Source: Calditrichota bacterium (GTDB taxonomy: Bacteria; Calditrichota; Calditrichia; Calditrichales; J004). Taken from it: 50,371 nucleotides of DNA. The stretch is from the NCBI GenBank assembly GCA_024277115.1, contig JAJRVW010000128.1, positions 1-50,371 on the forward strand. Direction: 5' to 3'. The notes under the pieces are model-generated. The model was given only the letters and a program-made list of their open reading frames with translations. It made no database searches and was not told the DNA's origin. This document shows positions 23,985 to 46,011 of the stretch, piece by piece; the first letter of the stretch is position 1, and every line of letters starts with the position of its first letter. Both the position numbers and the translations under genes were made by a program.

Positions 23985-26900
23985 CTATTCTATTTCTATA
24001 AATTCGGCCATTGATTGTAACAGGTCTTTTTCTTTAAAGGGTTTTACAATAAATGCGTTGGCGCCAAGTTCCTCACCGGTTTGGCGGTGTTTCATCCCTG
24101 CACGGCCTGTTAAGATAATTATCGGAAGGCTATCATGCTTTTTTTGTCCCCTAATGTTACTAATCAGGTCAAAGCCATGCATCTTCGGCATTTCTAAATC
24201 TGTAATCATTAGGTCTGCTTTTTCTGATTTCATTTTTTCCAGGGCATCGGCGCCATTTGTTGATTTAATGGTGAGGAATCCATTTCTTTCCAAAATCGAC
24301 CCAACAAAATTTCGCACACTGTTCGAATCATCTACAATTATTACTTTAGGTTTGCGGTTTTTTATAATTTTTTTCTTAACAACAGAACCTTTTGTCTCAG
24401 TTTCGGGCTCCTTCATTTCAGCTTTCTTTTTGGGCTTTTCACTGGTTTTAGAAGGTTTCTTCCTGGCTTTTGCAGTAGCACTCTTCTCCAGTTTTTGGGT
24501 TGCTTCTATTTTTCTGGTTACCTTTTTAGCGCCCGCCCTCTCAGAAACCTTGCCAAAAAAGTGAAGCTCAATCGTCCGGATAACAAGGGCATAATCTAAA
24601 ATAAGTGCCACATCACCATTTGCCAGTATCGTACCGCCGGCAATATAATCTACATTTTGCAAATGGCTTCCCAATGATTTTATAACAACTTCCTGACGTC
24701 CAACAAGTTCAGTAATACCCAAGGCCATACTAATTCCGGCATCATAAATAACAACCGCCATTTGTTGCCCGGCTTGTTTGCTTTCGTTCTCTTCCTTGTT
24801 AAATTTTAAAATATCACCAAGATAAATATAAGGCAGCAAACGGCCTCTAACCCGGATATATTTTTTATCATCATCCGTAATAATATCTACTGTTTTAAAT
24901 TGAATTGTTTCCTGAACGGCAATGACCGGGATAGCAACCGACTGCTGTTCCACTTTAACCATTAGTGCTTGCGAGATAATTAAAGTTAACGGAACACGCA
25001 GGCTGAAAGAGGCCCCTTTTCCTTGTTCCGTTTTGATCCGAATATTACCTTTCAATTTTTGAATCTGGTTAGATACGGAATCCAGGCCAATACCCCGCCC
25101 GGATATTGCTGTTGCTTCATCACGCGTTGAAAAACCGGCCACAAAAATATAATCAAGAATTTCTGCCTCGCTCATTTTGTCTACCTGCGCTTTTTCGACC
25201 AGGCCTTTTTCAACAATTTTATTTCGGACATTTTCAACATCGATGCCCCTGCCATCATCCGCAATATCAATTACAATTTGGTTTTTCTCCTGGCGCGCTT
25301 TTAAAAACAAAGTACCCGTTTCCGATTTGCCCTGCTCCAACCGTTCTTTGGGCGACTCCAGACCATGATCAATTGCGTTCCGTATAATATGAAGAATGGG
25401 TTCGGCCAAACCTTCAACCATGGCCCTATCCATTTCAGTGTTATTGTCCTCAATGATCAGGTTTACTTTTTTCTTCTGTTTCTGAGCCATGTCCCTTACT
25501 GCACGTGGATAGCGGTTAAATAAATTATCCACTGGTACCATACGGGTTTTTAGCATGTCGCTATGTAAAAGTTTACTGATGCTGGAAAGCCTGCCGATAT
25601 TTTGCTCAAAACCTTCGGATAGTTTATTAAGGTCCGTATGGATCACATTAACAGCACGTACAACGTCTTTAATATTCTCCGACATTTTCTGAATCTGCTC
25701 TTTCTTTTCAGAATCCTTCATATTCGAAGAATCGTCACTTAACAGCCCATATTCCAAGGCATCTTCAAGTACGTTTTCGGCGCCATGTATTTGTTTTTTC
25801 TCGCCTTCAATATCATTTAAAACACTCTTTAAAGATTGAAGGTGGGCGCCAAGCTGTGTTTGGTTAATCATCAGCTCCGAGGCCATGTCTACAAGCTTAT
25901 CCATGTACTCGGTACTAATTTTAATAATATTTTCTTCGCCACTTCTGGTTTTAGGGCCGGAAGCAGGCTTATCTTCAGATTTTACTTCTTCAGCAACCAC
26001 ACTTATTGCCGATGGCTCGCCAAAACTTTGGAACGCAAATATTTTATTGTCAATCTCTGCCAGCCGGGTTGTATATTGCGCCACTTCTTCTGTGCCCTCT
26101 TTTTCAATAGAATCGACCATATCGCTGGTCAGGTCAAGTGCAAGAAAAGCTGTATCGATCATCGTGTTTTTTGTAGAACTGTCTTTTTGTATATAGAGGG
26201 TAAAAAAGTCTTCCAGCTTATGCGCCAGATCGCCAATTAAATTATATTTAGAGATATAAGCACTGCCTTTTAACGTATGCAAACGGCGCAAAACATTGGA
26301 GTGGATCATCTCGCTCTCAGGCATTTTTTCGAGCTCAAGATAATCATCGTTCAGGCCGGCAACCAGTTCCCTGGCTTCCTCAACAAAAATGGTAACCATA
26401 TTTTCCGGCAAGGCATCTTCGGTAATTTCTTCGTCATTCACATCTTTGGAGATAGTCCAGTTCTCCAATTCTAAATCATAAATGATCCCGGAAATATCTT
26501 CTGTATCAAGCTCCACGCCCCGGCTTAATTTTTCGAGAATTACCACGGCATCATTTATTTTATCATTTAGCTCTGGTGAAGACACAATATTATTGTTGAG
26601 TACACCATCCGCAACCTGTTCCAGGCTATCAGTTATTTGAGAAATTTCACGGAAGCCCAGCATCTTTGCCGCTGATTTTAGCGAGTGCGAAGCATAACTA
26701 ATATTTTTCGCCCCATCCAGATTATTAGGATTATCTCTTAATTGCTGGTTTGATTCTGAAATATTGGCCAAAAAGGTTGTTGATTCTTCACGGAATATTT
26801 CCAGTAGTTCTTCATCATCTTCCGAGCCTTCTGCAAACAAAGGTTTCTCTTCTACAGTTGGTTTAGGTACAACTTGCTCTTTTTCTATACTTTCAAAACC

Positions 26901-28829
26901 AAATTGATCTTCACCTTTTTCCCCAACATCTTCGATTGCGATATTGTCCAATAAATCTTCCAACTTTTCCACAATCGCATCAAATGCCGTTGCCGGTTCA
27001 GCAATGAGGGTTTCCAAAGTTGCCGCACCTTTTAAAAGCGTCCCAGAGAGATCGCCCGGGATTGGAAACTCACTTTTGCCAAAAAGTTCTGCCGCTTCTT
27101 CGATGGCTGTTGCCAGTTTTGAAACATCTTTTAAATTAAGATAATGTGCCGATGAGCGTATCGCATGGCTGGAGTTTTCTACTTCTACAAGATTTTTCCG
27201 CTCACTACCAATATTAAACTGTTCCAAGTTTTCATAGATAATTTTTAAATGCCCCTGCGCTTCCTCCCTAAACAGGGCCATATCTTCATCAAGTTCTTCC
27301 ACAGGTTCCGATTTTTCTGCTTCCAAATCTACCGGCGCAGGCTCTTCTATAATCTCCGGTACTTCTTCGATTATTTTTTCTTCCGTTTCCACTTCTGATT
27401 CTGTAATATCGTTTAGCACAGCCAAAATATCTGTACAATCACCATTTTTACCATGGTGTTGCATTCGGTCAAAAAAGAGTTTGAAGGCATTTTCAATTTC
27501 CGAGGCTATATCCTTCTCAAGCGGGGTTTCAAAAGATTTATCGAATAAAGTTTGTATAAAATCCAGATAAGGCAGATAGTTGGAGAATTCAATAAGGGTT
27601 AGATTTTCTTTAAGTGAGGCTAAATAATCCGCGGCTTTTTCACGGTCGCCCGTGGCGCTTAATACATCCACCAGGTTTTCTTTTTGAATAGCCCATTCTT
27701 TAATGGCCGTTTCGATAAAGGCCTTCTGTGCCTGCTCATCGCCAAAACCAAAACTATCTTCTTTCGCAATGGTAGTTAATTCTGAAAGGGTTGTTTTAAA
27801 TAATTCAAAATCAATAGCGCTTATTTCTTTTTCGGCAAAGGTGGTCCAAACAGATTCGAGGACATCAATAGTTTCTGGAGTGGGTTGCTCTTTTGTCTCA
27901 TAAATCGAGTTATAATAATTTTTTAGGGGTTCGCTGACGCTGGTTAAAAGTTGCTCGTGGAAATAGTCCGCATTGGATTCAAACAATTCCAGGCTATCCA
28001 TAATAGTTTTTTGCGATTCATCCGAGAGAATATCTTTGTGGGCGTTAATAACTTTCGTGGATATTGTTTCAAAAAATGACTTAATTACTTTTTCAAAACC
28101 TTCACGGTCTGTCATCGCAAAAACGGCTTCGGCCTCTTCAACAACAGGCTCTTGTACCACTGCGGGTTCAGTCTGTGTGGGCTCCGGTTCTTGTACAGGT
28201 TCGCTTGCTTTAAACGAGTTTTCGAGCTGATCTACCTTCTCTTTTATCGCTTCCACATATTTCTTGCCATGGCTCTTATCGGCATAGTTTTCGACGGACA
28301 ATAAATCACTATAAATCTCGTGAAGAAGATCAATGCTTTTCTTGGTAAAGCCCAATTCGGAACCACTTAAACCTGAGATTTTTGAAGTTAATATTTGGGC
28401 AACATATTCTAATCCACTATAGCCGTGGATCATGCTTACCTCTTTAAGGGACTTAAACTTCTTAACCAAAAGCTGGATATTCTCTTTTTGGTTTAGTTCA
28501 TCCACACCTTTTTCAAGAAATGATTTTAAATCATTATACCCATCCTCAACCTCTGATTTAAAATAGAGCACCAATAAAGAATCTAATTCAGATTTTTCTG
28601 CAACGGATTTTTCTGCTGGCGCCTTAGCCGGTTCTTCGGTGATATCCTGAGATTTTACTGCCATTATTTTACCCGTAGCGGCAATATTCTCAAACTCAGC
28701 TTTGTCCTTTTTTTGAAAATCACGCACAAGCGATGCAATATTTGCAGCATTCGTTTCCAGATGCCCATGAAGAGATAAGCCGGAGCTATTTTCATCCGGC
28801 AATAAAGTTTTTACGGATGCAAAAACCAT
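23985..28829 (-). CDS. cheA: Very large CheA-type hybrid kinase (ChpA/PilL-like)
   Basis: 1614 residues from ATG 28829. The N-terminal two fifths are helical, Glu-rich, histidine-phosphotransfer-like modules. Recognisable Hpt sites are HAIRSSA (about 554), HSLKSAA (about 715) and the canonical HTLKGSA (about 850). Next come the CheA dimerisation region, a HATPase with N-box HIIRNAIDHGLE (about 1146) and DDGRGID, a CheW-like domain, a Lys-rich linker and a C-terminal receiver (about 1490-1614; DLMITDLEMP, ILTGR, KPF). Multi-Hpt hybrids of this size in Pseudomonas control twitching and surface sensing. ATG 28829 has no ribosome site, and the same frame is open and coding-like back to 28949, where a TAA separates it from the 28950-29447 frame. 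The true gene probably began at 29447. Confidence 0.93.
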   Translation of the reverse strand: MVFASVKTLLPDENSSGLSLHGHLETNAANIASLVRDFQKKDKAEFENIAATGKIMAVKSQDITEEPAKAPAEKSVAEKSELDSLLVLYFKSEVEDGYNDLKSFLEKGVDELNQKENIQLLVKKFKSLKEVSMIHGYSGLEYVAQILTSKISGLSGSELGFTKKSIDLLHEIYSDLLSVENYADKSHGKKYVEAIKEKVDQLENSFKASEPVQEPEPTQTEPAVVQEPVVEEAEAVFAMTDREGFEKVIKSFFETISTKVINAHKDILSDESQKTIMDSLELFESNADYFHEQLLTSVSEPLKNYYNSIYETKEQPTPETIDVLESVWTTFAEKEISAIDFELFKTTLSELTTIAKEDSFGFGDEQAQKAFIETAIKEWAIQKENLVDVLSATGDREKAADYLASLKENLTLIEFSNYLPYLDFIQTLFDKSFETPLEKDIASEIENAFKLFFDRMQHHGKNGDCTDILAVLNDITESEVETEEKIIEEVPEIIEEPAPVDLEAEKSEPVEELDEDMALFREEAQGHLKIIYENLEQFNIGSERKNLVEVENSSHAIRSSAHYLNLKDVSKLATAIEEAAELFGKSEFPIPGDLSGTLLKGAATLETLIAEPATAFDAIVEKLEDLLDNIAIEDVGEKGEDQFGFESIEKEQVVPKPTVEEKPLFAEGSEDDEELLEIFREESTTFLANISESNQQLRDNPNNLDGAKNISYASHSLKSAAKMLGFREISQITDSLEQVADGVLNNNIVSSPELNDKINDAVVILEKLSRGVELDTEDISGIIYDLELENWTISKDVNDEEITEDALPENMVTIFVEEARELVAGLNDDYLELEKMPESEMIHSNVLRRLHTLKGSAYISKYNLIGDLAHKLEDFFTLYIQKDSSTKNTMIDTAFLALDLTSDMVDSIEKEGTEEVAQYTTRLAEIDNKIFAFQSFGEPSAISVVAEEVKSEDKPASGPKTRSGEENIIKISTEYMDKLVDMASELMINQTQLGAHLQSLKSVLNDIEGEKKQIHGAENVLEDALEYGLLSDDSSNMKDSEKKEQIQKMSENIKDVVRAVNVIHTDLNKLSEGFEQNIGRLSSISKLLHSDMLKTRMVPVDNLFNRYPRAVRDMAQKQKKKVNLIIEDNNTEMDRAMVEGLAEPILHIIRNAIDHGLESPKERLEQGKSETGTLFLKARQEKNQIVIDIADDGRGIDVENVRNKIVEKGLVEKAQVDKMSEAEILDYIFVAGFSTRDEATAISGRGIGLDSVSNQIQKLKGNIRIKTEQGKGASFSLRVPLTLIISQALMVKVEQQSVAIPVIAVQETIQFKTVDIITDDDKKYIRVRGRLLPYIYLGDILKFNKEENESKQAGQQMAVVIYDAGISMALGITELVGRQEVVIKSLGSHLQNVDYIAGGTILANGDVALILDYALVIRTIELHFFGKVSERAGAKKVTRKIEATQKLEKSATAKARKKPSKTSEKPKKKAEMKEPETETKGSVVKKKIIKNRKPKVIIVDDSNSVRNFVGSILERNGFLTIKSTNGADALEKMKSEKADLMITDLEMPKMHGFDLISNIRGQKKHDSLPIIILTGRAGMKHRQTGEELGANAFIVKPFKEKDLLQSMAEFIEIE

Positions 28830-28949
28830 TTTACTCGCAGGCGCGCAACTCTCATCAATATTTTCTGTATTTATCAGTGTTTTACAAACTTTTAGAAAAG
28901 CATCTTTCTCTTTAGCACGATTGAGGTTTAGTGCAATATTCTTTAATAA

Positions 28950-29447
28950 TTATGTGCTATAAAATTCATTAAATGAAATCTCGCCCTCGGGCTTTTCATC
29001 AACATTTGGCTTTTGAGGCGTTTCAATGGTTTCGGCAGTTTTTATAGCAGGTGTTTTATTAATTTCGCCAAATTTTTCTTTAAATGAATCGACCACCTTT
29101 TGCAACGTATCAACACATTCGTCATCCTCTACCATCAATGCGTACAGGCTCAGAAAATCATCGGCCAGGTCCGGAAGCGTGTTATAAACAATTTTAGGGC
29201 CATAATCGTTTGCCCGTTCCACCATATCAAATAAGAAAATTGCAAGATCATTGGTTTGTTGAAACTTTGCCAGTTTCTCAAGCCCATCTACAATATTTTC
29301 TTCGCGCACAAGATACGAACTAATGTTTTCCAGTACTTCAAAATGAGTTTTTGCTACCTTTCCTTCGATCTTCTTTAAGGTGATATTTAAAAACTCATTT
29401 AAATAAAAGACATTAAAAGAAATTGCTTCCGTAGAAGTAATATCCAT
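28950..29447 (-). CDS. N-terminal piece of CheA, split off by an in-frame TAA
   Basis: 165 residues from ATG 29447 (TTGGAG at 29459-29454 is its ribosome site, overlapping the MCP stop). It is all-helical, with an acidic middle and a Pro/Glu/Thr-rich tail before its end, ISFNEFYST. It is in the same frame as cheA. Directly after its TAA (28950-28952) 40 sense codons lead into the annotated CheA start. Its opening motif ISFNVFY...LNITL recurs at the break (ISFNEFY...LKNIAL), so the stop falls inside the start of a second copy of a repeated helical module. I infer that this and the 23985-28829 frame were one protein of about 1820 residues. As a separate protein it has no recognisable function. 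Confidence 0.75.
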   Translation of the reverse strand: MDITSTEAISFNVFYLNEFLNITLKKIEGKVAKTHFEVLENISSYLVREENIVDGLEKLAKFQQTNDLAIFLFDMVERANDYGPKIVYNTLPDLADDFLSLYALMVEDDECVDTLQKVVDSFKEKFGEINKTPAIKTAETIETPQKPNVDEKPEGEISFNEFYST

Positions 29448-29459
29448 GTTATACTCCAA

Positions 29460-31253
29460 TTATCTTTCAACCAACCTAAATTTTTCCACGGCCTGGTTTA
29501 AGTTTTTAGACAAATATTCTAACGACGCCGCTGACTCTTTTGATTGTTTCGCACCTTCCGCAGTTTCTTTGGCGATACCTGCAATACGCTCCATGGCGGC
29601 AACAATATCCGAGCTTATTTTTGTTTGCTCTTCAGTGGCATTATAAATATCAAGGGTAGAATGGGCAGAAATATCCACACTCTGGATCACATCTTTAAAT
29701 GTATCGCCGGCATCATCTACAAGCTTGGCGCCAACAGCTACTTCGCTTTCGCCTTTTTCAATAGCGTCAATTGTTTCCGCGTTACTTGTATTTATATCCT
29801 CAATGAGCTGAGAGATTTCATCAGCCGATTTGCTTGATCGTTCAGATAAATTTCTAATCTCATCGGCCACAACCGAGAACCCTCTGCCGGCTTCACCTGC
29901 CCGGGCTGCTTCAATAGAGGCATTAAGGGCCAGTAAATTTGTACGGCTGGCTATCTCTGCAATAAAATCTGTTATCTCGCTGATACGCACAGAATTATCG
30001 CTTAGCACTTTCATCTGCCGCACAGCTTCTCGAACGGAACTTCTTATTTTCTGCATTCCATCAGTAGATTTTTGGACAATCTTTCCACCACTCTCGGCTA
30101 CCTCTTTTGCCTGCATGGCAGCCTGTGAGGCACGTTGGGCATTTTGGTTGGTATTAAAAATAAGCTCTGCCAGCCCTTTTGCCAGTTCTGTGATGGTTTC
30201 GGTTTGCGATGCTTGTGCTACCGATCCGTTGGCCATGGTATCCGTGTTTTTTGAAATATCCTGCGTAGTGGTCGCAACTTGGTCTGATGCATTTTTAACA
30301 TCTTTAATGAGTTCGCTCAAATCGCTGATCATGATATTAAAGGAATCGGACAAGGCGCCAAGTGCATCGGCGGTCACTTCTGCTTTTTGGGTAAAATCCC
30401 CATCTGCCGCAGAAGAAACAATCTTCAACAAATCTTTTATTTGTTTCTGGACTTTTTCTTTTTCTTCTTTCGATTCTTTTGTTTCTTTTAAACTTGTTTC
30501 CAGGTTTTTTAAATGTGATTGTAGTTCCGATAAATAGGCATTTCGTTTATCACCAAAAGAAACCGTTTTATTCTGTTCCAAGCGGCTTAAATTAAGCTCA
30601 ACATCATTCATACTTCGGTTAAAATTATTAAGCTCCAAAACTAAAATCAACAAACTTAAAACAAATAAGATGGACGTAAAAATAATAGGCAGGGAATATA
30701 AATCCCACACACTGCTATCTATATTGGAATATTTTTTTGATAAAACAAGCAAATAACTTTGTGAATTATTTAATGGTGCAAATGCATAGAGGTTTTTTGT
30801 GCCATCGCTACCCTGCTGATCAATTTTAACTTCAACCGTTTTCTCATTTAAAGCCTTTGTCAGCTCAGGATATGAGTCAAAATCTTCCCCAATATGGTTT
30901 GCTTCATCACCTGTCATTATAATTTTATTTACCGGGCTGCCTTTTTTTACAAGCGTTAATTTAATCTCAGGGTCATTAATAGACTTCTTGAGCATTTTCA
31001 TTTGGGCAGCAACCTTTGCATACCAGGAAGAAGATTTATAGTCATTAGAAGATTCTATGTACGAAACATCATTCTCATTTATCAGGGCCGCAGCCGTTTT
31101 AGAAATATTGCTCATTTGCGTTATCTGATCCTGAATATGCATCTCTGCATCGTGTTCCCTATCCAGGTATGCCCAAATAAGTACAACTACCAATGAAGCA
31201 GGAATCATTTTTTTAAGATAATTTTTTGCGAACTTTATACCGGTTTTACCCAT
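29460..31253 (-). CDS. Methyl-accepting chemotaxis protein
   Basis: 597 residues. A membrane helix at about 14-30 is followed by a periplasmic sensor of about 155 residues of cache-like size, a second helix at about 190-212 ([19 protein letters not shown]), a coiled-coil linker and a long signalling domain. The highly conserved hairpin tip is present near residue 440 ([21 protein letters not shown] followed by [12 protein letters not shown]). Its ATG overlaps the CheW stop (TAATG), so the two are translationally coupled. It is the only receptor in the operon, so it probably feeds the CheA next to it. Ligand unknown. Confidence 0.95.
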
Positions 31254-31729
31254 TATGCCCCCAACAAATAGCTATAACTAACTATTTCTTTTGCGTTAAA
31301 CAACGTCTCCAAATCCAGCAAAAATACCTTCCCTAGCCGTTTGTGATTATAGTATCCATTACAATACTGGATTAGGCTAAGTGGCATTTCTCGCGTTGGT
31401 ATTTGGATTTTACTTCCTTCAATCGAGAACACGTCCAATACTTTTTCCACAACAATCCCGAGTTTGGTTTTCTGATGTTCAACAATCACGACGAATGACT
31501 CCTCTGTAATTTTTTCGACAGGCAGGTTTAAAAAACCGCGGATATCTATTACAGATTGGATTTGGCCGCGCATATTAAAAACACCTAAAACGCAAGCATG
31601 TACATTGGGGATTTTTGTTATTACAGGCAACAACTGAACTTCCTGAACATATTTAACTTCTACACCAAAGTAATGCCCGGATATGCACAAAATTGAATAT
31701 CTGTATTCTGAATGAGAGGTATTTTTCAC
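31253..31729 (-). CDS. cheW: CheW-type coupling protein
   Basis: 158 residues, a single CheW domain of two beta-barrel subdomains ([21 protein letters not shown], then [18 protein letters not shown] and [11 protein letters not shown]). It bridges the receptor and CheA. The C-terminus is somewhat extended (about 30 residues), with aromatic residues and a hydrophobic end. It is placed between the receiver protein and the MCP, overlapping the latter by one base. Confidence 0.93.
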
Positions 31730-31754: not shown

Positions 31755-32012
31755 CTAAATTAATTTCTTGATTTTTTCTACAAGGTCATCATCCTTAAAC
31801 GGCTTAGGTAAAAACTCTTCTGCACCTTCATTTTTTGCAGTTTCTATCATCTGGGGCGAGTCTTTCCCTGAAAGCATAATTACAGGAATGCCTTTTGAGG
31901 CTTTAATTGTTTTTAATATTTCGATGCCATTAATATCCGGCAACATCATATCAAGGATAACCAAGTCCGGGTTTGTCTGATCCATAACTTCAAGGCCTTC
32001 TTTGCCGCTCAC
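31755..32012 (-). CDS. C-terminal two thirds of a receiver domain, cut off by an in-frame stop
   Basis: 85 residues from a GTG (VSGKEGLEV). It contains the phospho-acceptor Asp (LVILDMMLPD), the Ser site (IMLSGKD) and the Lys (LPKPF) but lacks the acidic N-terminal strand. It is in frame with the gene at 32019-32792, which ends at TAA 32019-32021 exactly in the alpha1-beta2 part of the same domain. Either a nonsense mutation, a sequence error, or two complementing chains. No ribosome site supports the GTG. Confidence 0.7.
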   Translation of the reverse strand: MSGKEGLEVMDQTNPDLVILDMMLPDINGIEILKTIKASKGIPVIMLSGKDSPQMIETAKNEGAEEFLPKPFKDDDLVEKIKKLI

Positions 32013-32018
32013 AGCCGT

Positions 32019-32792
32019 TTAGATAGTCAACTCTTCTTCTTCCAGCGCTATTTCAACCATTTTTCTAATCACGAGGCTATCATCGATAACAAGTATTTTT
32101 TTGTATCCACTTTTATCCGGGCCTTCTTCTTGTGTTTCGGCTGGTGGTTCCGGTGTTTCTACTTTTTCTTCTGTCTTTTCATCACCGGTCAGGTTAAAAT
32201 TGAATTCCATATCGTCTGAGATATCATCACCCTCAGCGATATTTATTTCAATTTTTTCTTCTTCCAATTCCGGTTCAGTAGCAGCTTCTTGCTCTGGTGT
32301 TTCTTCAAGAAGATCATCTAAAATATTATCTTCCTCAGTTTCCATAAGCAAGTTCTCAGGCTCAACTGTTTCCACAGGAATGGTCTCTTCAAATAGTTCT
32401 TCACCTGCTGTCTGTGGTTCTGATTCCTGCAGAAGTTCATCTAGAACTTCAGTAGCCTCACTTTCTTCCACAACTTCTTCAGCTATTTTCTCCTTGGTAG
32501 CTTCAGGTGCCGCTTTAGTTTCAACAGGGGCTTCTTCAATATCACTTTTCGGGCCTTCTGTTTCACCCAACACAACTAGGCCATTATCGGCCAATAATTG
32601 CATTGATTTTGAAACGGCGTATTCCTCTGTTTCCAGTAAATCGGCTATCCCCTGGCTTGTTGCATTCTTGTTAACAAGAAAAAGTACCTTCCAGGCCAGG
32701 TACGGTAATTTGACGGACCTTATGAGTTCATCCAGGTTTTCAACACGGTTATACAAGTTTTCCACGTCTGAATCCTTTCCTATTACGATCAA
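32019..32792 (-). CDS. Winged-helix / acidic-linker / receiver protein, truncated by TAA
   Basis: 257 residues from TTG 32792, which overlaps the TGA that would end full-length ParA (TTGA). Residues about 10-75 look like a small winged-helix or DUF4388-type domain (ISQGIADLL-like, TEEYAVSKSMQLLADNG). Residues 80-225 are very acidic (Glu/Thr/Pro), and residues about 228-257 begin a receiver domain (KKILVIDDSLVIRKM). The frame stops at TAA 32019-32021, then continues in the same frame with the rest of the receiver. Restored length would be 345. I infer a CheY-like output protein for the adjacent CheA; in its truncated state it lacks the phosphorylation site. Confidence 0.85.
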   Translation of the reverse strand: MIVIGKDSDVENLYNRVENLDELIRSVKLPYLAWKVLFLVNKNATSQGIADLLETEEYAVSKSMQLLADNGLVVLGETEGPKSDIEEAPVETKAAPEATKEKIAEEVVEESEATEVLDELLQESEPQTAGEELFEETIPVETVEPENLLMETEEDNILDDLLEETPEQEAATEPELEEEKIEINIAEGDDISDDMEFNFNLTGDEKTEEKVETPEPPAETQEEGPDKSGYKKILVIDDSLVIRKMVEIALEEEELTI

Positions 32793-32880
32793 CTTTGCTC
32801 TTTTTTAATAATTTCTTCAGCTAAATTTATATAACTTATGGCTCCGGCAGAATTGATATCATGTAATGCCACCGGTTTTC

Positions 32881-33555
32881 CTACAGATGGTGCTTCCGAT
32901 ATTTTGAGTTTCTAGGTATTTTCGTCTGAAAAAGTAAATCTTTGAATGATTTTGACATATCATTTGCGATTTCACGGCTTTTTTTTAGGCGTTTGTCGTA
33001 CATTGTTATCAAGATACCTAATATGCTTAATTTTACGTTAAACTTATTTCCTATATTTTTAACAGATCTTAAAAACTTCCCTAATGATTTTAATGAATAA
33101 TATTCGCATTGAATCGGGATAATCACAGAGTTTGCCGCTGCGAGCGCATTCATTGTAAGGGTTCCAAGATTTGGGGGACAGTCAATTAGAATATAATCGT
33201 ACAAATCGATATATGGCTGTAATACATTACTTAAAAGTTTGATATGAAATGCGCTTGTGTACAATTCAACCTCATCTTCTTCATCACGCACATTTGAAGG
33301 AACAATTTCGAAATTTTCTAAGCCAATATCCATTAATGCTGAAGATAATGGGATTTTTTTTACAAAAATATCAAAAATGCCATATTCAATTTCAAACTCA
33401 TTCAAATGAAAAGTTTCTGCAATACTTCCCTGAGGGTCCATATCTATAACTAAGGTTTTTTTTTGAAATATAGCAAGACTAACACCCAGGTTAATTGCGG
33501 TTGATGTTTTTCCTACGCCACCTTTTTGGCTTGCAATTGCAACAATTTTTCCCAT
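32881..33555 (-). CDS. ParA/Soj-family ATPase with frameshifted C-terminus
   Basis: 224 residues. The deviant Walker A (KGGVGKTS, residues 10-17), MDPQGS and the Walker B region (YILIDCPP) are intact. After IPRNSK the frame runs off into KYRKHHL and stops at 32881-32883. One extra A in the AAAA run (plus-strand TTTT at 32902-32905), or a -1 slip at AAA, gives the family's normal ending: ISEAPSVGKPV, DINSAGAISYINLAEEI, then TGA at 32789-32791. Restored length is about 255, normal for Soj. ParA proteins beside chemosensory genes often place chemoreceptor arrays (ParC-like), which fits this operon. The gene begins 15 bases after hutU. Confidence 0.9.
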   Translation of the reverse strand: MGKIVAIASQKGGVGKTSTAINLGVSLAIFQKKTLVIDMDPQGSIAETFHLNEFEIEYGIFDIFVKKIPLSSALMDIGLENFEIVPSNVRDEEDEVELYTSAFHIKLLSNVLQPYIDLYDYILIDCPPNLGTLTMNALAAANSVIIPIQCEYYSLKSLGKFLRSVKNIGNKFNVKLSILGILITMYDKRLKKSREIANDMSKSFKDLLFQTKIPRNSKYRKHHL

Positions 33556-36441: not shown

Positions 36442-36903
36442 TTATGCAGAAGCTTCTTTCTTCTCCACATTTTCTTTCTTTTTGATATTTTCTTTCTTTT
36501 TAATATTTTCTTCTTTTTTCTTAGCCCGCTTTTCGGCCGTATATGTGCTAAAATCTACAAGTTCAAGCATACTGATTGCGGCCGCATCGCCTTTTCTAAA
36601 ACCTAACTTGATAATGCGTGTATATCCGCCAGGACGCTCTGCACATGCGGGCCCAATCTCACCAAACAAAGTTTTAACAGCCTCTTTATTTTGTAAAAAT
36701 TTAAATGCAAGCCTTCTGTGATGCATAGAACCCTTTTTAGCATACGTTATTAGTTTCTCAGCATATCTACGCACTTCTTTGGCTTTTGCATCAGTCGTTT
36801 TTATTGACTTATGCTCAAATAAATTTGCTACCATATTACGCATTAGTGCCTTTTTATGGCTGGTAGTACGTCCTAAATGCGTACCTTTTTTATTATGTCT
36901 CAT
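36442..36903 (-). CDS. rplQ: Ribosomal protein L17 with Lys/Glu repeat tail
   Basis: 153 residues. The core (1-120: THLGRTTSHKKALMRNM, RRLAFKFL, RPGGYTRI) is normal L17 of the large-subunit tunnel exit region. The last 30 residues are a low-complexity tail with a six-residue unit (ENIKKK) repeated about three times, encoded by 18-bp tandem repeats near 36469-36522. The tail is likely lineage-specific and disordered. Last gene of the run, 21 bases after rpoA. Confidence 0.97.
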   Translation of the reverse strand: MRHNKKGTHLGRTTSHKKALMRNMVANLFEHKSIKTTDAKAKEVRRYAEKLITYAKKGSMHHRRLAFKFLQNKEAVKTLFGEIGPACAERPGGYTRIIKLGFRKGDAAAISMLELVDFSTYTAEKRAKKKEENIKKKENIKKKENVEKKEASA

Positions 36904-36924
36904 TTTGGGTTTCCTTCTTCGGCA

Positions 36925-37914
36925 CTATTGTTTTTCTTCTGGTTTAACATAACTTTCAATATTCATTCCAAATTGCAAGCCTCGCTCTTCAAGAATTTTT
37001 CCAAGTTCCATTAAAGACTTACGACCAAAGTTTTTAAACTTTAACATTTCACCCTCTTCACGCCTTACCAAATCACCAATATTTTTAATATTAGCAGCTT
37101 TTAGGCAATTATGGGAACGAACAGAGAGTTCCAGTTCATCAACACTCATTTTTAATAGTTTCTTGATACGAAGAGTTTCTTCATCGATCTCTGCAACCTC
37201 GTCATCCTCTGTATCAATATCAAAATTAATAAATAATTGAATATGATCTTTTAAAATTTTGCCCGCATAAGTTAAAGCATCATCTGGCGTTACACTACCA
37301 TCCGTTTCAACCTCGAGAATTAATTTTTCAAAATCAGTTTTTTGACCAACACGTGTATTTTCGATAAAATATTTCACATTAATAACAGGTGTAAATATTG
37401 AATCTATTGCAATAACACCGATTGACTGGTCACTTTGTTTATTTTCTTCAGCAGTTACATAACCACGCCCTTTGCCAATTTGTAATTCAATATCCAAATT
37501 AGCGCTTTCATTAAGTGTGGCAATATGCAGGTCAGGATTTAATATTTCGAAATCATTACTATTATCCTGAATCATACCCGCTGTAAATTCTTGTGGGCCG
37601 GATAAAGATAAACAGATTTTTTCGGGTCTCTTGTTAATTAACTTAAGACGTACCTGTTTAAGATTTAATATAATTTCAGTAATATCTTCGTAAACACCCT
37701 CAATTTGTGTAAACTCATGCTGTACATTATTTACTTTAATTGAAGCTATTGCAGCACCATGCAAAGAGGATAACAAAACCCTTCTTAGCATATTTCCTAC
37801 TGTGACACCGTAGCCTTTTTCGAGGGGCTGAACAAAAAATCGTCCAAATGTGTCAGTATACGTTGATTCTTCTAATTCAACTCGTTCTGGCATTTGTAAA
37901 TTTGACCAGCTCAT
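36925..37914 (-). CDS. rpoA: RNA polymerase alpha subunit
   Basis: 329 residues, normal length. The N-terminal dimerisation domain includes GYGVTVGNMLRRVLLSS. The C-terminal domain has the two helix-hairpin-helix stretches for UP-element and activator contact (SHNCLKAANIKNIGDL, FKNFGRKSLMEL). The linker at about 225-245 is acidic. It lies between rpsD and rplQ, as in the standard alpha operon. Confidence 0.98.
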   Translation of the reverse strand: MSWSNLQMPERVELEESTYTDTFGRFFVQPLEKGYGVTVGNMLRRVLLSSLHGAAIASIKVNNVQHEFTQIEGVYEDITEIILNLKQVRLKLINKRPEKICLSLSGPQEFTAGMIQDNSNDFEILNPDLHIATLNESANLDIELQIGKGRGYVTAEENKQSDQSIGVIAIDSIFTPVINVKYFIENTRVGQKTDFEKLILEVETDGSVTPDDALTYAGKILKDHIQLFINFDIDTEDDEVAEIDEETLRIKKLLKMSVDELELSVRSHNCLKAANIKNIGDLVRREEGEMLKFKNFGRKSLMELGKILEERGLQFGMNIESYVKPEEKQ

Positions 37915-37938
37915 TCTCCACCTATGTATTTAAATTAT

Positions 37939-38553
37939 TTATTTTGAATACAATTCTACTATCATATTTTCTTGAATATTAACAGGTATTTCTTCGCGGT
38001 TTGGTGCATAAAGAAACTCACCCGTCAACTGGGACTTATCAAGATTTAACCAGGCATACATATTTTCTGCACGTACTTTTTTTAGCGATTCATGAAATAC
38101 AGATAATTTTCTGCTTTTTTCACGAACTTGAACTGTATCCCCTTTTTCCAAAATATACGAGGGTATATTTACAGATTTTCCATTCACAGTAATATGTCTG
38201 TGAAGAACCAACTGTCGTGCCTGCGTACGCGAAACAGCTAATCCTAAACGAAAAACGGTATTATCCAAACGGCTCTCTAAAAGCATTAACAAGTTTTCAC
38301 CTGTTACGCCTTTCATTTGCTCAGCTTTTTTAAATGTTTTTCTAAACTGGCGTTCAAGAAGTCCATACATGAACTTTAATTTTTGTTTCTCTTTTAGCTG
38401 AATACCATAATCAGAAACTTTCTTACGTCCCATTCCGTGTTGCCCGGGGGGGTAAGGTTTATTACTTAAAAGCTTATCAAATTTTGGATTGCCAAATATA
38501 TTTTCTCCAAATTTACGAACAAGCTTTCCTTTTGGACCCGTGTTACGTGCCAT
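37939..38553 (-). CDS. rpsD: Ribosomal protein S4, zinc-free type
   Basis: 204 residues. The N-terminus lacks the zinc cysteines found in C+ forms. An S4 RNA-binding domain lies at about 95-155 (SRLDNTVFRLG, ARQLVLHRHITVNG). S4 is a primary 16S binder and in other bacteria represses the alpha operon. Confidence 0.97.
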   Translation of the reverse strand: MARNTGPKGKLVRKFGENIFGNPKFDKLLSNKPYPPGQHGMGRKKVSDYGIQLKEKQKLKFMYGLLERQFRKTFKKAEQMKGVTGENLLMLLESRLDNTVFRLGLAVSRTQARQLVLHRHITVNGKSVNIPSYILEKGDTVQVREKSRKLSVFHESLKKVRAENMYAWLNLDKSQLTGEFLYAPNREEIPVNIQENMIVELYSK

Positions 38554-38577
38554 TTATTAAACTCCAAATAATATTTT

Positions 38578-38967
38578 TTATACGCGTCTTTTCTTAGGAG
38601 GCCTACAGCCATTATGCGGAATAGATGTTACGTCTCTTATAGAAATAACTTCTAAACCTGCTGCCTGTAGTGAACGGATCGCAGCTTCGCGACCAGAACC
38701 TGGACCTTTTACTTCAATATCTACGGATTGAAGCCCCATATCTTTTGCAATTTTTGTTGCATTTTCCGCTGCAACCTGTGCTGCAAATGGTGTATTTTTC
38801 CGCGAACCTTTAAAGCCAACTTTGCCCGCTGTTGCCCAAGAAATAACATTACCATAATTATCTGTAATTGAAATTATAGTATTGTTAAATGTAGCTTTTA
38901 TATGTGCCTTACCGTGAGGCTCGACAGTTTTTTTCTTTGTGCGTTTTTTAACCTTTGGTGATGCCAC
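38578..38967 (-). CDS. rpsK: Ribosomal protein S11
   Basis: 129 residues, full length. Recognised by [30 protein letters not shown] and the C-terminal [11 protein letters not shown]. It sits in the 30S platform near the mRNA exit. 16 bases after rpsM. Confidence 0.97.
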
Positions 38968-38983
38968 CCATTACCTCCAATAC

Positions 38984-39352
38984 TTATTTTTTCTTTCCAC
39001 CTACAAGACGTTTACGACCTTTTCTTGTCCGGGCATTAGTTTTTGTTCTTTGCCCATGAACAGGTAAACCTCTGTGATGTCTGTACCCACGAACTGAGTT
39101 AATATCCATTAATCGCTTAATGTTCATATTTATTTCAGTTTTAAGGGCACCTTCTACTTTATATTCATCCTGTATCTTTTTTCGGATTTTTGTTACGGCA
39201 TCTTCAGATAGATCCTGAACACGGGTATTTACATCTACGCCACATTCGTTACAAATTTTTTGTGAAGATGTTTTGCCTATACCGTAAATATAGGTCAATC
39301 CGATAATTACTCTTTTGTTTTTGGGTAAATCTACGCCTGCTATACGTGCCAA
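38984..39352 (-). CDS. rpsM: Ribosomal protein S13
   Basis: 122 residues: [10 protein letters not shown], a helix-two-turn-helix (LTYIYGIG), and the basic tail [16 protein letters not shown] that reaches the P-site tRNA. First of the alpha operon set, 17 bases after rpmJ. Confidence 0.97.
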
Positions 39353-39369
39353 TCTATTTCTCCTTAAAT

Positions 39370-39486
39370 TTAACCCTGACGCTGCTTATGCCGTGGATTT
39401 TTACTGCATATTACGCGAACAATACCTTGTCGGCGAATTACCTTGCATCCGTCGCAAATCTTTTTTACCGAAGCTTGTACTTTCAT
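39370..39486 (-). CDS. rpmJ: Ribosomal protein L36, zinc type
   Basis: 38 residues: [17 protein letters not shown] then [16 protein letters not shown]. The three Cys and one His of the zinc ribbon are all present. It lies between infA and rpsM as expected. Confidence 0.95.
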
Positions 39487-39496
39487 AATAAAGCCC

Positions 39497-39718
39497 TTAT
39501 TTATATCTGTAAACTATTCTACCGCGAGTTAAATCGTATGGAGATAGTTCCATACTTACTTTATCACCCGGTAAGATTTTTATAAAATGCATTCTCATTT
39601 TACCAGAAATATATGCTAAAACTTCATGCCCATTTTCTAGTGTAACAATAAATGATGCATTTGGTAGTGTTTCTTTAATTATTCCGTCTACCTTTATCGC
39701 CTCTTGCTTTTTTGCCAA
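39497..39718 (-). CDS. infA: Translation initiation factor IF-1
   Basis: 73 residues from TTG 39718, chosen because it gives the family's start (M-A-K-K-Q-E) and has AGGAAGAGG upstream; longer in-frame starts would overlap secY. S1/OB fold with [15 protein letters not shown] and [14 protein letters not shown]. Binds the 30S A site. The adk and map genes often found between secY and infA are absent here. Confidence 0.95.
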
Positions 39719-39734
39719 AAGAGAACCTCTTCCT

Positions 39735-41063
39735 TTATGCCCTGCGGCTTTTAATTGCACCAGACTTCATAAAGCCATCATAATGCCGTTCAAATAATTG
39801 CGATTCAACCTGCTGTAGAAAATCGAGTGCAACACCAACAATAATCAATAGTCCCGTTCCGCCAAAAAAGGATGCGAGGCTAAAGGGAATACCAAACCAT
39901 TTTGCAAGCATGGCAGGGACGATCGCAATTAAACCAAGAAAAACAGATGCCGGTAATGTAATACGTGTCAAAATATTATCAAGAAATTCTGAGGTTTTTT
40001 TGCCCGGACGAACACCTGGAATAAACCCACCCTGTTTTTTTAAATTATCAGCAACATCCACAGGATTTAATGCTATGGCCGTGTAAAAATATGTAAAGAA
40101 TACTATTACGAAGAAGTAAAATATCCAATAAAACCATGAGTCGTACGAGAACAAGCTTTGTACATAACCTGTAAAGTCACTTTCAGGTAAAAATGTTAGC
40201 ATTGTTTGGGGTACAAACATTAAAGCCTGTGCAAAGATAATTGGCATTACACCTGCTGTTAATACCTTCATAGGAAAGTGTGTATTGACACCACCATATA
40301 CCTTCCGGCCAACAACTCTTTTGGCATACTGAACCGGGATTTTACGTGTACCTTGTGTTAATAACACTACAACATATATAATCCCAAAGGCCAAGGCAAT
40401 TAATGCAAACTCTGTTAATAAGCCACGCTGTCCACTCGAAAACTGAATAAACTCTTGATTTAAAGCTGACGGCAACTGGGCAATAATCCCTATAAAAATT
40501 ATAAGAGAAATACCATTTCCAATGCCACGATCATCTATTTGCTCACCCAGCCACATTATAAGCATCGTACCCGATGTCATAGATAACACGGTCATTAACA
40601 CAAAGCCAATACCTGGATCCGGAACGGCAAGCCTGCCATCCGAAATTTGAATACTTTGTAAAAAGAAAGCCACGCCTGCAGCCTGTGCTGCTGAAATACC
40701 CAAAGTTCCATACCGTGTAAATTGTGTGATTTTCTTTCGTCCTTCATCACCCTCTTTTTGCAGCTTTTGAAAATAAGGAAAAACAGCCCCGAGCAATTGG
40801 ATAATAATTGATGCGCTAATATAAGGCATAATACCCAAACCAAATATGGCGGCTTTTTTAAAGGCCCCACCGGCAAACAGATCATACAAACCAAACAAGG
40901 TACCTTGCAGGTTTCTAAACCCTTCAGCAAGCACGGCTGTATCGATACCCGGAGTTACAACATGCGTACCAATACGTTCGATACCTAATATCATAATTGT
41001 GAATAAAACACGTTTCCGTAAATCGGCAATTTTGAAAATATTACTGAATGATTGCAAGATCAT
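39735..41063 (-). CDS. secY: Protein translocase subunit SecY
   Basis: 442 residues, about ten membrane helices. SecY motifs [18 protein letters not shown] and the conserved cytoplasmic loop ([11 protein letters not shown]) are visible. It is the channel of the Sec system that would export the signal-peptide proteins encoded in this window. Start overlaps the rplO stop by four bases (ATGA). Confidence 0.98.
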
Positions 41064-41500
41064 GATAAAGTAACTGAGCCTCCTGCTTTTTCAACTTTTT
41101 CCTTTGCAGATTTACTAACAGAGTTTACTATAATGTTCACTTTTTTATCCAAATCCCCATTGCCAAGCAATTTAACAGGAACACTTTTTTTCCGGATAAT
41201 TCTTTTTTCATAAAGGGTTTCGATAGTGATCTCTTCACTCATATCCAAATCTTGCAGGTCAGCAACATTAATAATTTGGTAATAAATTTTATTAATATTG
41301 GTAAATCCAAATTTTGGTAAACGTCTTTGGATAGGCATTTGCCCGCCTTCAAACCATGCCCTTTTTTTGCTACCACCACGCGAGCCATAACCTTTGTGTC
41401 CACGCCCTGCTGTTACACCAAGGCCAGAACCTTCGCCACGTCCACGTCTTTTTGTTTTCTTTGTTGAACCTTTGTTAGGTTTTAAGCTACTTAAATCCAT
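41060..41500 (-). CDS. rplO: Ribosomal protein L15
   Basis: 146 residues. Gly/Arg-rich N-terminal arm (RRGRGEGSGLGVTAGRGHKG) and a globular C-terminus (SAKEKVEKAGGSVTL). Overlaps secY by four bases. Confidence 0.97.
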   Translation of the reverse strand: MDLSSLKPNKGSTKKTKRRGRGEGSGLGVTAGRGHKGYGSRGGSKKRAWFEGGQMPIQRRLPKFGFTNINKIYYQIINVADLQDLDMSEEITIETLYEKRIIRKKSVPVKLLGNGDLDKKVNIIVNSVSKSAKEKVEKAGGSVTLS

Positions 41501-41517
41501 GAGTATTCCTAATTGAG

Positions 41518-41715
41518 TTAATTCACGTCCTCGACGGAAACTAAATGTTTTACTTTATAAACCATTCCTTCGATTTGCGCATTACTAACTTGTACAACGG
41601 AATGATTCAGTTTACGTATGCCCAGAGCTTCCAATGTCCTTTTTTGCTTAACATTGTAACCTATAGCGCTTTTAATTTGCGTTATTTTAATTTTTGTTTC
41701 TTTTTTCTTTGCCAT
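41518..41715 (-). CDS. rpmD: Ribosomal protein L30
   Basis: 65 residues: IKITQIKSAIGY, QKRTLEALGIRKLNHSVV, VYKVKHLVSVE. Short bacterial form. Normal place between rpsE and rplO. Confidence 0.96.
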   Translation of the reverse strand: MAKKKETKIKITQIKSAIGYNVKQKRTLEALGIRKLNHSVVQVSNAQIEGMVYKVKHLVSVEDVN

Positions 41716-41738
41716 CGATATTATCCTTTACAACCATT

Positions 41739-42245
41739 TTAGCCATGAAACATTGTACTTAACGAGATACCGCGACTCTTGGCGACATCTTCTGCACTAA
41801 TCATTTCACGAAGGGCGTAATACGTTGCTTTACTTAAATTATGTGGATTAGAAGACCCATTGGATTTGGTCAAGATATTTTGCACACCGGCCATTTCACA
41901 AACAGCCCTTACAGGACCCCCCGCAATTACACCTGTACCAGGAGATGCCGGTTTTAACATTACTTTAGCAGCGCCATATTTTGCATTTACAGCATAAGGT
42001 ATAGTTCCATTAAGCAATGTAACACGTCCAAGGTTCTTTTTTGCTTGGTCAGTTGCTTTCGAGATAGCATTAATTACTTCCCCGGCTTTACCAAGCCCAA
42101 GGCCAATAATTCCATTTCCATCACCAACAACAACAATGGCATTAAATGAGAACCTTCGGCCCCCTTTAAGTACCTTTGCCACACGGTTGATAAATATTAC
42201 CTTTTCTTTTAAATCTAACTCACCTGGATTAATTCTTTCCAGCAC
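41739..42245 (-). CDS. rpsE: Ribosomal protein S5
   Basis: 168 residues. Double-stranded RNA-binding N-domain ([19 protein letters not shown]) and C-domain (APGTG-like [31 protein letters not shown]). Part of the mRNA entry and decoding fidelity site. Confidence 0.97.
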
Positions 42246-42260
42246 GACAATTCTCCTAAT

Positions 42261-42587
42261 TTAAAACTTAAGTCCGCCTTCTCTTGCACCATCCGCTAAG
42301 GCTTTTACACGACCATGATAAATATATCCGTTTCTATCAAAAATCACTTTTTCAATCTTTTTATCTTTGGCCTTTTCTGCTATAGCCTTACCAATAATAG
42401 AGGCAGCTTCTGTTTTTGATTTTGCCTTTTCTACTTGAGCAGAAACATCTTTTGATTTATTCATTAGACCAATAAGAACCGTATTGGTAGTATCATCCAC
42501 AATTTGGGCATGAATATAACGCAAACTACGATAAACTACCAAGCGTGGTCTTTCTGCTGTTCCGACAACTTTTCTTTTTTTACTCAT
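42261..42587 (-). CDS. rplR: Ribosomal protein L18, short N-terminus
   Basis: 108 residues. The core is intact (GTAERPRLVVYRSLRYIHAQ, YHGRVKALADGAREGGL). The basic N-terminal arm is about ten residues shorter than usual. Binds 5S rRNA. Confidence 0.96.
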   Translation of the reverse strand: MSKKRKVVGTAERPRLVVYRSLRYIHAQIVDDTTNTVLIGLMNKSKDVSAQVEKAKSKTEAASIIGKAIAEKAKDKKIEKVIFDRNGYIYHGRVKALADGAREGGLKF

Positions 42588-42606
42588 TTCTCATCCTGAA
42601 ACTAAT

Positions 42607-43146
42607 TTATTTACCTGCTGTTTTGCCAGCCTTACGTCTAATATATTCACCTTCATACTTAATGCCTTTGCCTTTATAAGGCTCAGGTTTACGAAAGCTT
42701 CTTATTTTCGCAGCAATTTTACCTACAATTTCTTTATCAATACCACTAATCTCAATGGATGTTGGCGTAGGCGTTTTTATAGTAATCGAATCTGGAACCG
42801 CTACAACTATCGGGTGCGAAAACCCTATTGTGAGCAACAGGTTCTTACCCTTCATCTCTGCCTTGTATCCAATACCAACTATTTCAAGTTTTTTTATATA
42901 ACCCGAATTAACACCTTCAACCATATTGGCAACAAGTGCACGTGTTAAACCATGCAAACTCCTGCTCTCTTTAAGATCATTACTTCTGGTTATAACAATT
43001 TGGTTGTCCTTATAATCCATCGTCATTTTTGGATGGAATTTTTTTGACAGCTCACCTTTGGGCCCTTTTACTATTAAAAAGTTATCCGAAAGGCTTATGT
43101 TTGTATTTGCCGGAATATCTACAGGCATTTTTCCGATTCTTGACAC
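42607..43146 (-). CDS. rplF: Ribosomal protein L6
   Basis: 179 residues from GTG 43146 (V-S-R-I-G-K, read as Met), with AGGGG upstream. The longer start at 43173 would overlap rpsH and give nine non-homologous residues. Contains YKAEMKG and the C-terminal PEPYKGKGIKYEGEYIRRKAG. Near the GTPase centre. Confidence 0.96.
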   Translation of the reverse strand: MSRIGKMPVDIPANTNISLSDNFLIVKGPKGELSKKFHPKMTMDYKDNQIVITRSNDLKESRSLHGLTRALVANMVEGVNSGYIKKLEIVGIGYKAEMKGKNLLLTIGFSHPIVVAVPDSITIKTPTPTSIEISGIDKEIVGKIAAKIRSFRKPEPYKGKGIKYEGEYIRRKAGKTAGK

Positions 43147-43166
43147 TTTAATTTCCCCTAATTTAA

Positions 43167-43565
43167 CTACCAAACTTCACAAAGGACTTCACCACCAACA
43201 TTTTGCCTTCTGGCTTCGGATGCTGTAATAATTCCTTTGGGAGTAGTTAGGATTGAAATCCCTAAATTATTTTTAACCCTTGGTAAATTTTCTACTGATA
43301 CATACAGTCTTCTACCAGGCTTACTAATTCTTTTAATATTATGAATTACAGGGCTACCAAGTTCATCATATTTTAACCAGATTCTGATAAATCCCTGAAG
43401 GCCATCATCGATAATAATATACTTTTTTACAAAACCCTGCTCGAAAAGAATACGCGAAATTTTTCTTTTCATATTAGAAGCAGGTACATCTACATAGGTC
43501 TTTTGTGCATGTAAACCATTACGCACACGCGTTAAATAATCTGCAATTGGATCAGACATTGACAT
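43167..43565 (-). CDS. rpsH: Ribosomal protein S8
   Basis: 132 residues. DPIADYLTRVRNG at the start, and RRLYVSVENLPRV and GISILTTPKGI before a normal EVLCEVW-type end (GGEVLCEVW). S8 is a primary 16S binder and represses the spc operon in Escherichia coli. Confidence 0.97.
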   Translation of the reverse strand: MSMSDPIADYLTRVRNGLHAQKTYVDVPASNMKRKISRILFEQGFVKKYIIIDDGLQGFIRIWLKYDELGSPVIHNIKRISKPGRRLYVSVENLPRVKNNLGISILTTPKGIITASEARRQNVGGEVLCEVW

Positions 43566-43585
43566 AATACTTTATTCCTCCACCG

Positions 43586-43771
43586 CTACCAGCTTGCTTT
43601 TGTAATTCCAGGTATTTCACCCTGGAGAGATAACTGACGAAAACATATTCTGCAAATTCCGAATTTGCGCATATATGCCCTCTGACGCCCACAACGGTTG
43701 CACCGGTTGTATTCACGTACTTTAAATTTTTGTTTTCTATTTGCTTTAACAACTAAACATTTCTTAGCCAA
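43586..43771 (-). CDS. rpsN: Ribosomal protein S14, zinc (type Z) form
   Basis: 61 residues, the short zinc form: [15 protein letters not shown] and CRICFRQL provide four Cys. Ends in [11 protein letters not shown]. With L36 also zinc-binding and S4 zinc-free, the zinc-protein set is mixed. Confidence 0.97.
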
Positions 43772-43786
43772 TTTTAACCTCTTGTG

Positions 43787-44347
43787 CTAATTCACATTTT
43801 TCTTAAATGGAAAACCCATGGCCAATAACAACTCATACGCTTCTTCATCTGTGTTTGCAGTTGTCACAAACGTAATGTTTAAGCCTCGGATTTTATCAAT
43901 TTTATCAACATTTATTTCAGTAAAAATAATTTGTTCTCTCACACCCATCGAGTAATTTCCGCGTCCGTCAAAAGATTTATCAGGATATCCCCTAAAATCC
44001 CTTACCCGTGGCGAAGTAACAGAGATGAACCTGTCCAAAAATTCGAACATTCTTTTTTGCCTTAATGTAACCATACATCCAATTTTCATTCCTTCACGTA
44101 ATTTGAAGTTTGAAATTGATTTGCGCGCTTTCCGTACAGATGGTTTCTGACCGGAAATTATGGTTAGTTCGTTAATGGCCGACTCAATGTGTTTTGAATC
44201 TTGAATTGCTTCACCAACGCCCATATTTAAGTTGATCTTAACTAACTTTGGAACCTGGTGAATATTTTTATAACCAAATTTTTTAATAAGAGCAGGTATA
44301 ACCTCCTCTTTATATTTTGTCGCTAAGCGTGGAATAACTGTAGACAT
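43787..44347 (-). CDS. rplE: Ribosomal protein L5
   Basis: 186 residues. [54 protein letters not shown] and a C-terminal [18 protein letters not shown]. Binds 5S rRNA and contacts P-site tRNA. Confidence 0.97.
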
Positions 44348-44366
44348 TTTTCCTCATCCTGCCGAA

Positions 44367-44687
44367 TTAATTTATTACTTCACCCTGACAATCAGAATTT
44401 TTACAATATCTGACTTTAGAGCCATCATCTAAAATTTTATAGCCAATTCTTGTAGGTACATTAAATTTTGTTGAATAGTACATAACCTTAGAAACATGAA
44501 TCGGTGCTTCCTTTTCCAAAATTCCACCTTGTGGATTTTTTTGTGAAGGTTTGGTATGGCGTTTAACAATATTAACACCCTCAACAATGATTTTCTCATC
44601 TGTGGGAAAAACTTTTAAGACTTTGCCCGTTTTTCCACGATATTTACCTGAAATTACTTTTACCGTATCGTTTTTAATTATCTTCAT
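44367..44687 (-). CDS. rplX: Ribosomal protein L24
   Basis: 106 residues. KOW motif ([16 protein letters not shown]) then [14 protein letters not shown] and a C-terminal segment with two Cys ([11 protein letters not shown]). Early assembly initiator protein of the 50S. Confidence 0.97.
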
Positions 44688-44701
44688 CTTATTTTCCGTT
44701 A

Positions 44702-45070
44702 TTAAAGTACTTCCGGTGCAAGAGAAACAATTTTCATAAATTTCTTCTCTCTTAGCTCACGCGCTACAGGTCCAAAAATCCTTGTGCCGCGCGGTTCGTT
44801 CTGGTCATCTAAAATCACTGCCGCATTTTCATCAAAACGAATATATGTTCCATCGGTACGTCTTATTTCTTTTTTTGTTCTTACCACTACCGCCTTATGA
44901 ACCGTTCCTTTTTTTACATTACCACCAGGAATGGCACTTTTTACAGTTACGACGATAATATCCCCAATTGAGGCATATTTTTTCTTTGACCCACCTAACA
45001 CGCGGATACATTGCACCTTTTGTGCGCCCGAATTATCTGCAGAGATAAGTCTTGTTTCTTCTTGAATCAT
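44702..45070 (-). CDS. rplN: Ribosomal protein L14
   Basis: 122 residues. [59 protein letters not shown] (start and end of this stretch match the family). Forms the intersubunit bridge with 16S. Confidence 0.97.
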
Positions 45071-45090
45071 TGTAGTTCCCTATCGGAGTT

Positions 45091-45348
45091 TTATTTAGCT
45101 TTTTCTACGATCTCAATTAAACGCCAGCATTTCTTTTTACTTAGAGGCCGGGTTTCCATAATTTTTACAACATCGCCTTCAGTGCATGTATTTTCAGCGT
45201 CATGTGCATACAGCTTTAAGGTCTTTTTAATAAATTTGCCGTAAATCGGATGTTGAATTCTTCGTTCCACACCAACTGTAATAGTTTTATCCATTTTATT
45301 GCTTAACACTTTTCCAACACGTGTTTTTCTTAAATTACGATCACTCAT
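45091..45348 (-). CDS. rpsQ: Ribosomal protein S17
   Basis: 85 residues. OB fold with [29 protein letters not shown] and [13 protein letters not shown]. One base after rpmC, implying coupling. Confidence 0.97.
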
Positions 45349-45349
45349 T

Positions 45350-45556
45350 TTAACTTTCCTGGTTAATCATGTTGTGTTGATGAATAAACGTTTTAATCCG
45401 CGCAATATCCCTTCTTACAAAACGGATACGAAGTGGATTGGTAATTTGATGTGTCGCCTGTTGCATTCTTAGATTCTCTAATTCTTCAACACGCTCATCT
45501 AGTCTTTCATTCAACTCTTCTACAGATAATTCTTTGTAATTTTCTTGCGATTTCAT
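45350..45556 (-). CDS. rpmC: Ribosomal protein L29
   Basis: 68 residues, two long helices: [18 protein letters not shown] and [15 protein letters not shown]. The ATG is preceded by sequence shared with the rplP end. Docks factors at the tunnel exit. Confidence 0.96.
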
Positions 45557-45567
45557 CTCGTGCCCGC

Positions 45568-45981: not shown

Positions 45982-46011
45982 TTAATATTCTCCTAAAACC
46001 TCTCTTATATA

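Follow-up and report, generated by a model that had tools for sequence, protein, structure and literature searches.

An in-frame TAA at codon 166 of a Pil-Chp-like hybrid cheA from Calditrichota is one of about 24 similar internal stops and most likely reflects a base-level error or else a change that is very recent and unselected

The closest described counterparts of the gene analyzed here are hybrid CheA proteins of the ChpA/PilL type, in which several Hpt domains, a kinase, a CheW domain and a C-terminal receiver follow N-terminal modules devoid of the phosphotransfer histidine, and whose genes have CheW, methyl-accepting chemotaxis protein (MCP) and response-regulator neighbors. The ChpA of P. 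aeruginosa contains eight potential Hpt domains, and a separate protein homologous to its N terminus, FimL, matches its first 563 residues (PMC3019171). Two further precedents bear on in-frame stops: in Blastocrithidia UAR is read as glutamate and UGA as tryptophan, with UAA doubling as terminator (PMC12153298), and Shulgina and Eddy (2021) described in-frame stops of pseudogenes that had been mistaken for changes of the genetic code (PMC8629427).

The window, that is the whole 50,371-nucleotide stretch of DNA analyzed here, belongs to a Calditrichota assembly of 4.97 Mb in 255 contigs (95.6% complete) and carries a cheA frame of 1,820 codons (29447-23985, minus strand, as are all features of this operon). 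Hpt, kinase, CheW and receiver domains are found in one chain: three Hpt domains at 26043-27302 (27302-26925, 26822-26445 and 26420-26043; Pfam Hpt 1.1e-27 in three stretches), the HATPase_c kinase domain at 24984-25400 (Pfam 6.6e-15), a CheW-like domain at 24573-24971 (Pfam CheW 2.3e-19) and the C-terminal receiver at 24012-24344 (Pfam Response_reg 1.1e-26), with H-kinase_dim scoring slightly under its Pfam cut-off. As in Pil-Chp-like systems, cheA adjoins genes for an MCP in a PilJ-like position (29460-31253; Pfam MCPsignal), a CheW-like protein in a PilI-like position (31253-31729; domain search) and a response regulator (31758-32795), beyond which lies a ParA-like gene (32792-33555). The last two are themselves broken: the former by a TAA (32021-32019) inside a receiver domain otherwise almost identical to that of the sister species, which has GAA (Glu) at this position, and the latter by a one-base deletion near 32903, close to the C terminus, where an A run is one base shorter than the sister's. 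Its domains and neighbors identify it as a large hybrid CheA of ordinary build, encoded in a chemosensory operon of Pil-Chp-like layout. The organism, a member of Calditrichota, is one difference from the known systems. The protein further differs from P. aeruginosa ChpA in having three Hpt domains and a fourth that is degenerate rather than eight potential ones (PMC3019171), and from ChpA/PilL-type proteins in that its first two N-terminal modules have no Pfam match.

These N-terminal modules are three in number. Module 1 (residues 8-135; 29043-29426) is a well-conserved ISFNxFY helical unit, 76% identical to the sister; module 2 (residues 157-275; 28623-28979) is a fast-evolving unit of the same kind with the TAA in its first helix and 33% identity to the sister after the stop; and module 3 (residues 286-425; 28173-28592) is Hpt-like by profile match (E 2.5e-5 to 9.6e-5 against true Hpt domains) but reads KEVSMIHGY at the site where those domains carry the phosphotransfer motif HTLKGSA. 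The repetition of ISFNxFY at residues 9 and 158 noted in the sequence-only reading is real, as the profiles of modules 1 and 2 match each other (HH E = 7.3e-6). Because a Foldseek search of the PDB returned no match with E below 0.2 for these two modules, they are not callable as Hpt domains on structure. A search of viral contigs with the N-terminal piece found no match, and a search of genome contigs yielded one full-length relative, from Calditrichaeota bacterium J004.

The single internal stop of the cheA frame is the TAA at 28952-28950 (codon 166). It separates an upstream piece of 165 codons (28953-29447), starting at ATG 29447 behind a GGAG, from a downstream open frame of 1,654 codons (23985-28949), the ATG-started part of which (28829-23985) would encode 1,614 residues. 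That same sequence-only reading had described the frame as continuous but for this TAA, the 40 codons behind it as coding-like, ATG 28829 as lacking a ribosome site, and the break as explicable by one GAA to TAA change. Our analysis bears out both this observation and the local explanation, which are correct: the frame reads through from end to end with one stop; the 40 codons can be aligned in frame to the relatives, have a coding-like score (mean log-odds of 0.15 for the first 15 of them) and contain no ATG, GTG or TTG before ATG 28829; and that codon is preceded by a mere GAG triplet, compared with the GGAG at ATG 29447. It is important to note that the weak site proves little by itself, since 36% of shared start codons in the source genome lack even a 3-base ribosome-site match.

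Comparison with relatives points to a formerly continuous gene. Nineteen of the 40 genomes of the class yielded a strong CheA match, and internal stops occur only in the window's own. All 17 aligned Calditrichota relatives read through the stop position, with Glu in 13, Phe in 2, Gln in 1 and Ser in 1; the 13 glutamates are encoded by GAA or GAG, and the sister species (G001), whose CheA is 66% identical overall, has GAA, one base from TAA. One base change, from GAA to TAA, in a frame that used to be uninterrupted is thus a supported account of the stop. No close relative carries the two pieces as separate genes; all are fused. Two distant relatives deviate, one (G029) by a frame change in module 2 and the other (G039) by an N-terminal region lying in separate frames with several frame breaks. 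Module 2 evolves fast in all lineages, and relaxed evolution in the window's own was rejected, with 27 derived residues there against 29 in the sister. As module 2 shows no acceleration, the stop would have to be very recent, silent in effect or absent from the cell, and, up to a very recent time, constraint on the frame was normal.

The stop is not an isolated event. We compared the source assembly with the sister over 338 paired genes (117,228 codons; 352 kb out of ~5 Mb) and counted 25 internal stops, one of which (on C219) lies in an upstream extension, leaving 24. Glutamate stands opposite 16 of these (TAA 14, TAG 2); the other TAA stops lie opposite Lys (2), Ser (2), Gln (1) and Asn (1), and the remainder are a TAG opposite Asp and a TGA opposite Trp. 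Split-frame matches numbered 13, and, with one (C125) lying upstream of its gene, there are about 12 frameshifts, nearly all of them single-base deletions. The coding sequence compared contains approximately one break per 10 kb, and the breaks are even over contigs (χ2 8.1 for 21 df), which led us to reject local decay of the che operon, while the reverse comparison found no convincing internal stop or frameshift in the sister. The genes hit, named from their motifs, include DnaA-like (TQ*EFFHTFN), FtsH-like (LVN*AALLAAR) and thioredoxin-reductase-like ones, and on an unpaired contig a TAA replaces the Walker B glutamate of an ABC ATPase (IILAD*PTGNLD). Domain searches likewise revealed in-frame TAA codons in receiver and ABC domains of the source genome and none among the listed domains of the sister. 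Since the cheA stop is one of about 24 alike, its cause is to be sought in the entire assembly or genome rather than in cheA itself.

The spectrum of these breaks is distinctive. Plain random error would be expected to place about 17% of stops opposite Glu, where 16 of 24 are observed; Glu-to-stop affects 0.28% of conserved sites, and stops opposite Lys, Gln, Leu or Tyr are rare or absent. Models of uniform or transition-biased error fit the aligned residues 13 to 17 nats worse than a model in which all were Glu, and the residue spectrum led us to reject sequencing error of either of these two forms. Under a permissive setting, Asp-to-Tyr replacements number 12 and their mirror images 2, an excess that is weak under a strict setting, whereas the missense G-to-T classes Gly to Cys or Trp, Gly to Val, Arg to Leu and AGN to ATN are level with the mirrored background; with most such classes at background, general G-to-T damage at all sites is unsupported. 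In a UvrB-like gene (G000 C67:6352) the aspartate of the DESH motif reads Tyr, with GAT in the sister and TAC in the source assembly.

Because this spectrum looks codon-specific, we tested whether UAR is read as glutamate. According to such a reading UAA and UAG would sometimes specify Glu (and UGA Trp) while UAA also terminates, leaving cheA, the response regulator and other genes intact. Blastocrithidia offers the precedent for both the assignments and the dual-meaning UAA (PMC12153298), and resembles the present case in having UAA and UAG opposite Glu, a UGA (here one) opposite Trp and UAA retained as terminator. In-frame UAR opposite conserved Glu recurs in many genes, the non-Glu remainder (Lys, Ser, Gln, Asn, Asp) consists of common exchange partners of Glu, and 'all Glu' is the best fit to the 25 aligned residues. 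Unlike in Blastocrithidia, the share of GAA codons affected would be no higher than about 0.5%, no cognate tRNA was found, release factors are unchanged and base-level deletions are present as well. Specifically, three approaches turned up no suppressor tRNA: the 39 tRNAs of the 95.6% complete assembly, where tRNA candidates were partly scored, include no UUA, CUA or UCA anticodon, and a UUA-anticodon tRNA pattern gave six matches against six for a reversed control, hence no excess. RF1 and RF2 are both full length and have their motifs in common with those of the sister, TAA ends 200 of 323 genes (62%) with C-terminal lengths unchanged, and the one-base deletions and Asp-to-Tyr changes would require a separate cause. 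We therefore consider this reading very improbable, and assign marginally less credence to the claim that this Calditrichota reads a minor fraction of its UAA and UAG codons as glutamate with UAA ending most genes, which would amount to a dual-meaning stop in a bacterium. The pseudogene cases of Shulgina and Eddy (PMC8629427) are similar in that stops fall at a preferred residue and no suppressor tRNA accompanies them, but theirs lie at Trp via transitions and ours at Glu via G to T. Least probable of all is a functional two-gene arrangement, in which the N-terminal modules would form a free FimL-like protein and translation restart would make the kinase. FimL shows that a stand-alone equivalent of a CheA N terminus exists, as the 165-residue fragment would be, and in G029 and G039 the N-terminal region lies in separate frames; the latter is nevertheless poor evidence because of its several frame breaks. 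The fusion in all close relatives, the stretch of 40 start-free codons and the bare GAG before ATG 28829 argue against such an arrangement. So does the location of the stop, which interrupts a module 2 helix (residues 159-174 in the predicted structure of the sister's CheA) instead of falling between modules; FimL, in contrast, matches ChpA over its first 563 residues (PMC3019171). The likeliest origin of the stop is either an error at the base level or an unselected change of very recent date, and not a designed protein split; as biology the CheA break is probably not a real split.

Between the two leading explanations, a real and recent nonsense mutation within a burst of unselected mutations in the strain ranks second and is, in our estimate, unlikely without being far-fetched. 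The cell would then produce the 165-residue fragment. Were ATG 28829 or some other start functional, it would also make a shortened CheA with the three Hpt, kinase, CheW and receiver domains retained, as the catalytic domains all lie downstream of ATG 28829; two neighboring genes are also broken, as expected from decay of a dispensable system, and the class relative G029, a single contig, likewise has a one-base frameshift in module 2. The breaks are, however, spread evenly over the genome and reach DnaA- and FtsH-like genes instead of being concentrated in the che operon, and natural mutational spectra are rich in transitions, yet only one stop lies opposite Gln and only one opposite Trp. We regard it as probable, ahead of the nonsense mutation and of recoding, which is unlikely, that the break is an assembly-level base error and that the cell makes an intact CheA of 1,820 residues. 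A genome-wide base-level process would convert G to T where A follows (GAA/GAG to TAA/TAG, and some GAY to TAY) and would also drop single bases within short runs; the errors would sit in the assembled sequence while the living cell keeps its CheA whole. Loss of a single base from a run is characteristic of sequence error. A base-level process is favored because the Asp-to-Tyr excess, the DESH aspartate included, is inexplicable by recoding, and its placement in the assembled sequence is suggested by how evenly the breaks are spread, by the one-base deletions and by the essential genes hit, from which we infer sequence error rather than real mutation as the cause. True stops at the DnaA-like, FtsH-like and Walker B sites would be very costly, in keeping with error, whereas the narrowness of the spectrum, from which Glu-to-stop stands out, speaks against a plain one. 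If error is the cause, many proteins are split in the assembly, and gene calls and pseudogene claims drawn from it need correction genome-wide; if not, an explanation is needed either for a burst of G-to-T nonsense changes that reached essential genes or for a UAR-to-Glu assignment in a bacterium. The cheA stop is useful as a flag on the assembly and as a cheap test for an unusual code.

Several minor observations were made along the way. The frame change in G029 (L054 7309-12808) is of one base and splits the N-terminal modules from the kinase. Elsewhere in the source assembly (L205 13700-14614, on C61), two tandem small frames, which we take to be GIY-YIG-like, follow a tRNA-Glu gene, and each copy ends in a 3' tRNA-Glu fragment and a copy of the terminator; the two additional tRNA-Glu-like stretches are accordingly 3' fragments with no 5' half, and the same search did not find the array in the sister genome. 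An incomplete duplicate of tRNA-Pro (CGG), degenerate in its 5' half, lies at L192 3426-3508. Within the window, a ribosomal-protein-type cluster (36442-50371) is mostly 80-98% identical to the sister and has zero breaks, and an outer-membrane-protein-like stretch (8107-9140, plus strand) continues in another frame after 8586, has TAA 8700 and TGA 8853 in frame, and looks like a further broken gene.
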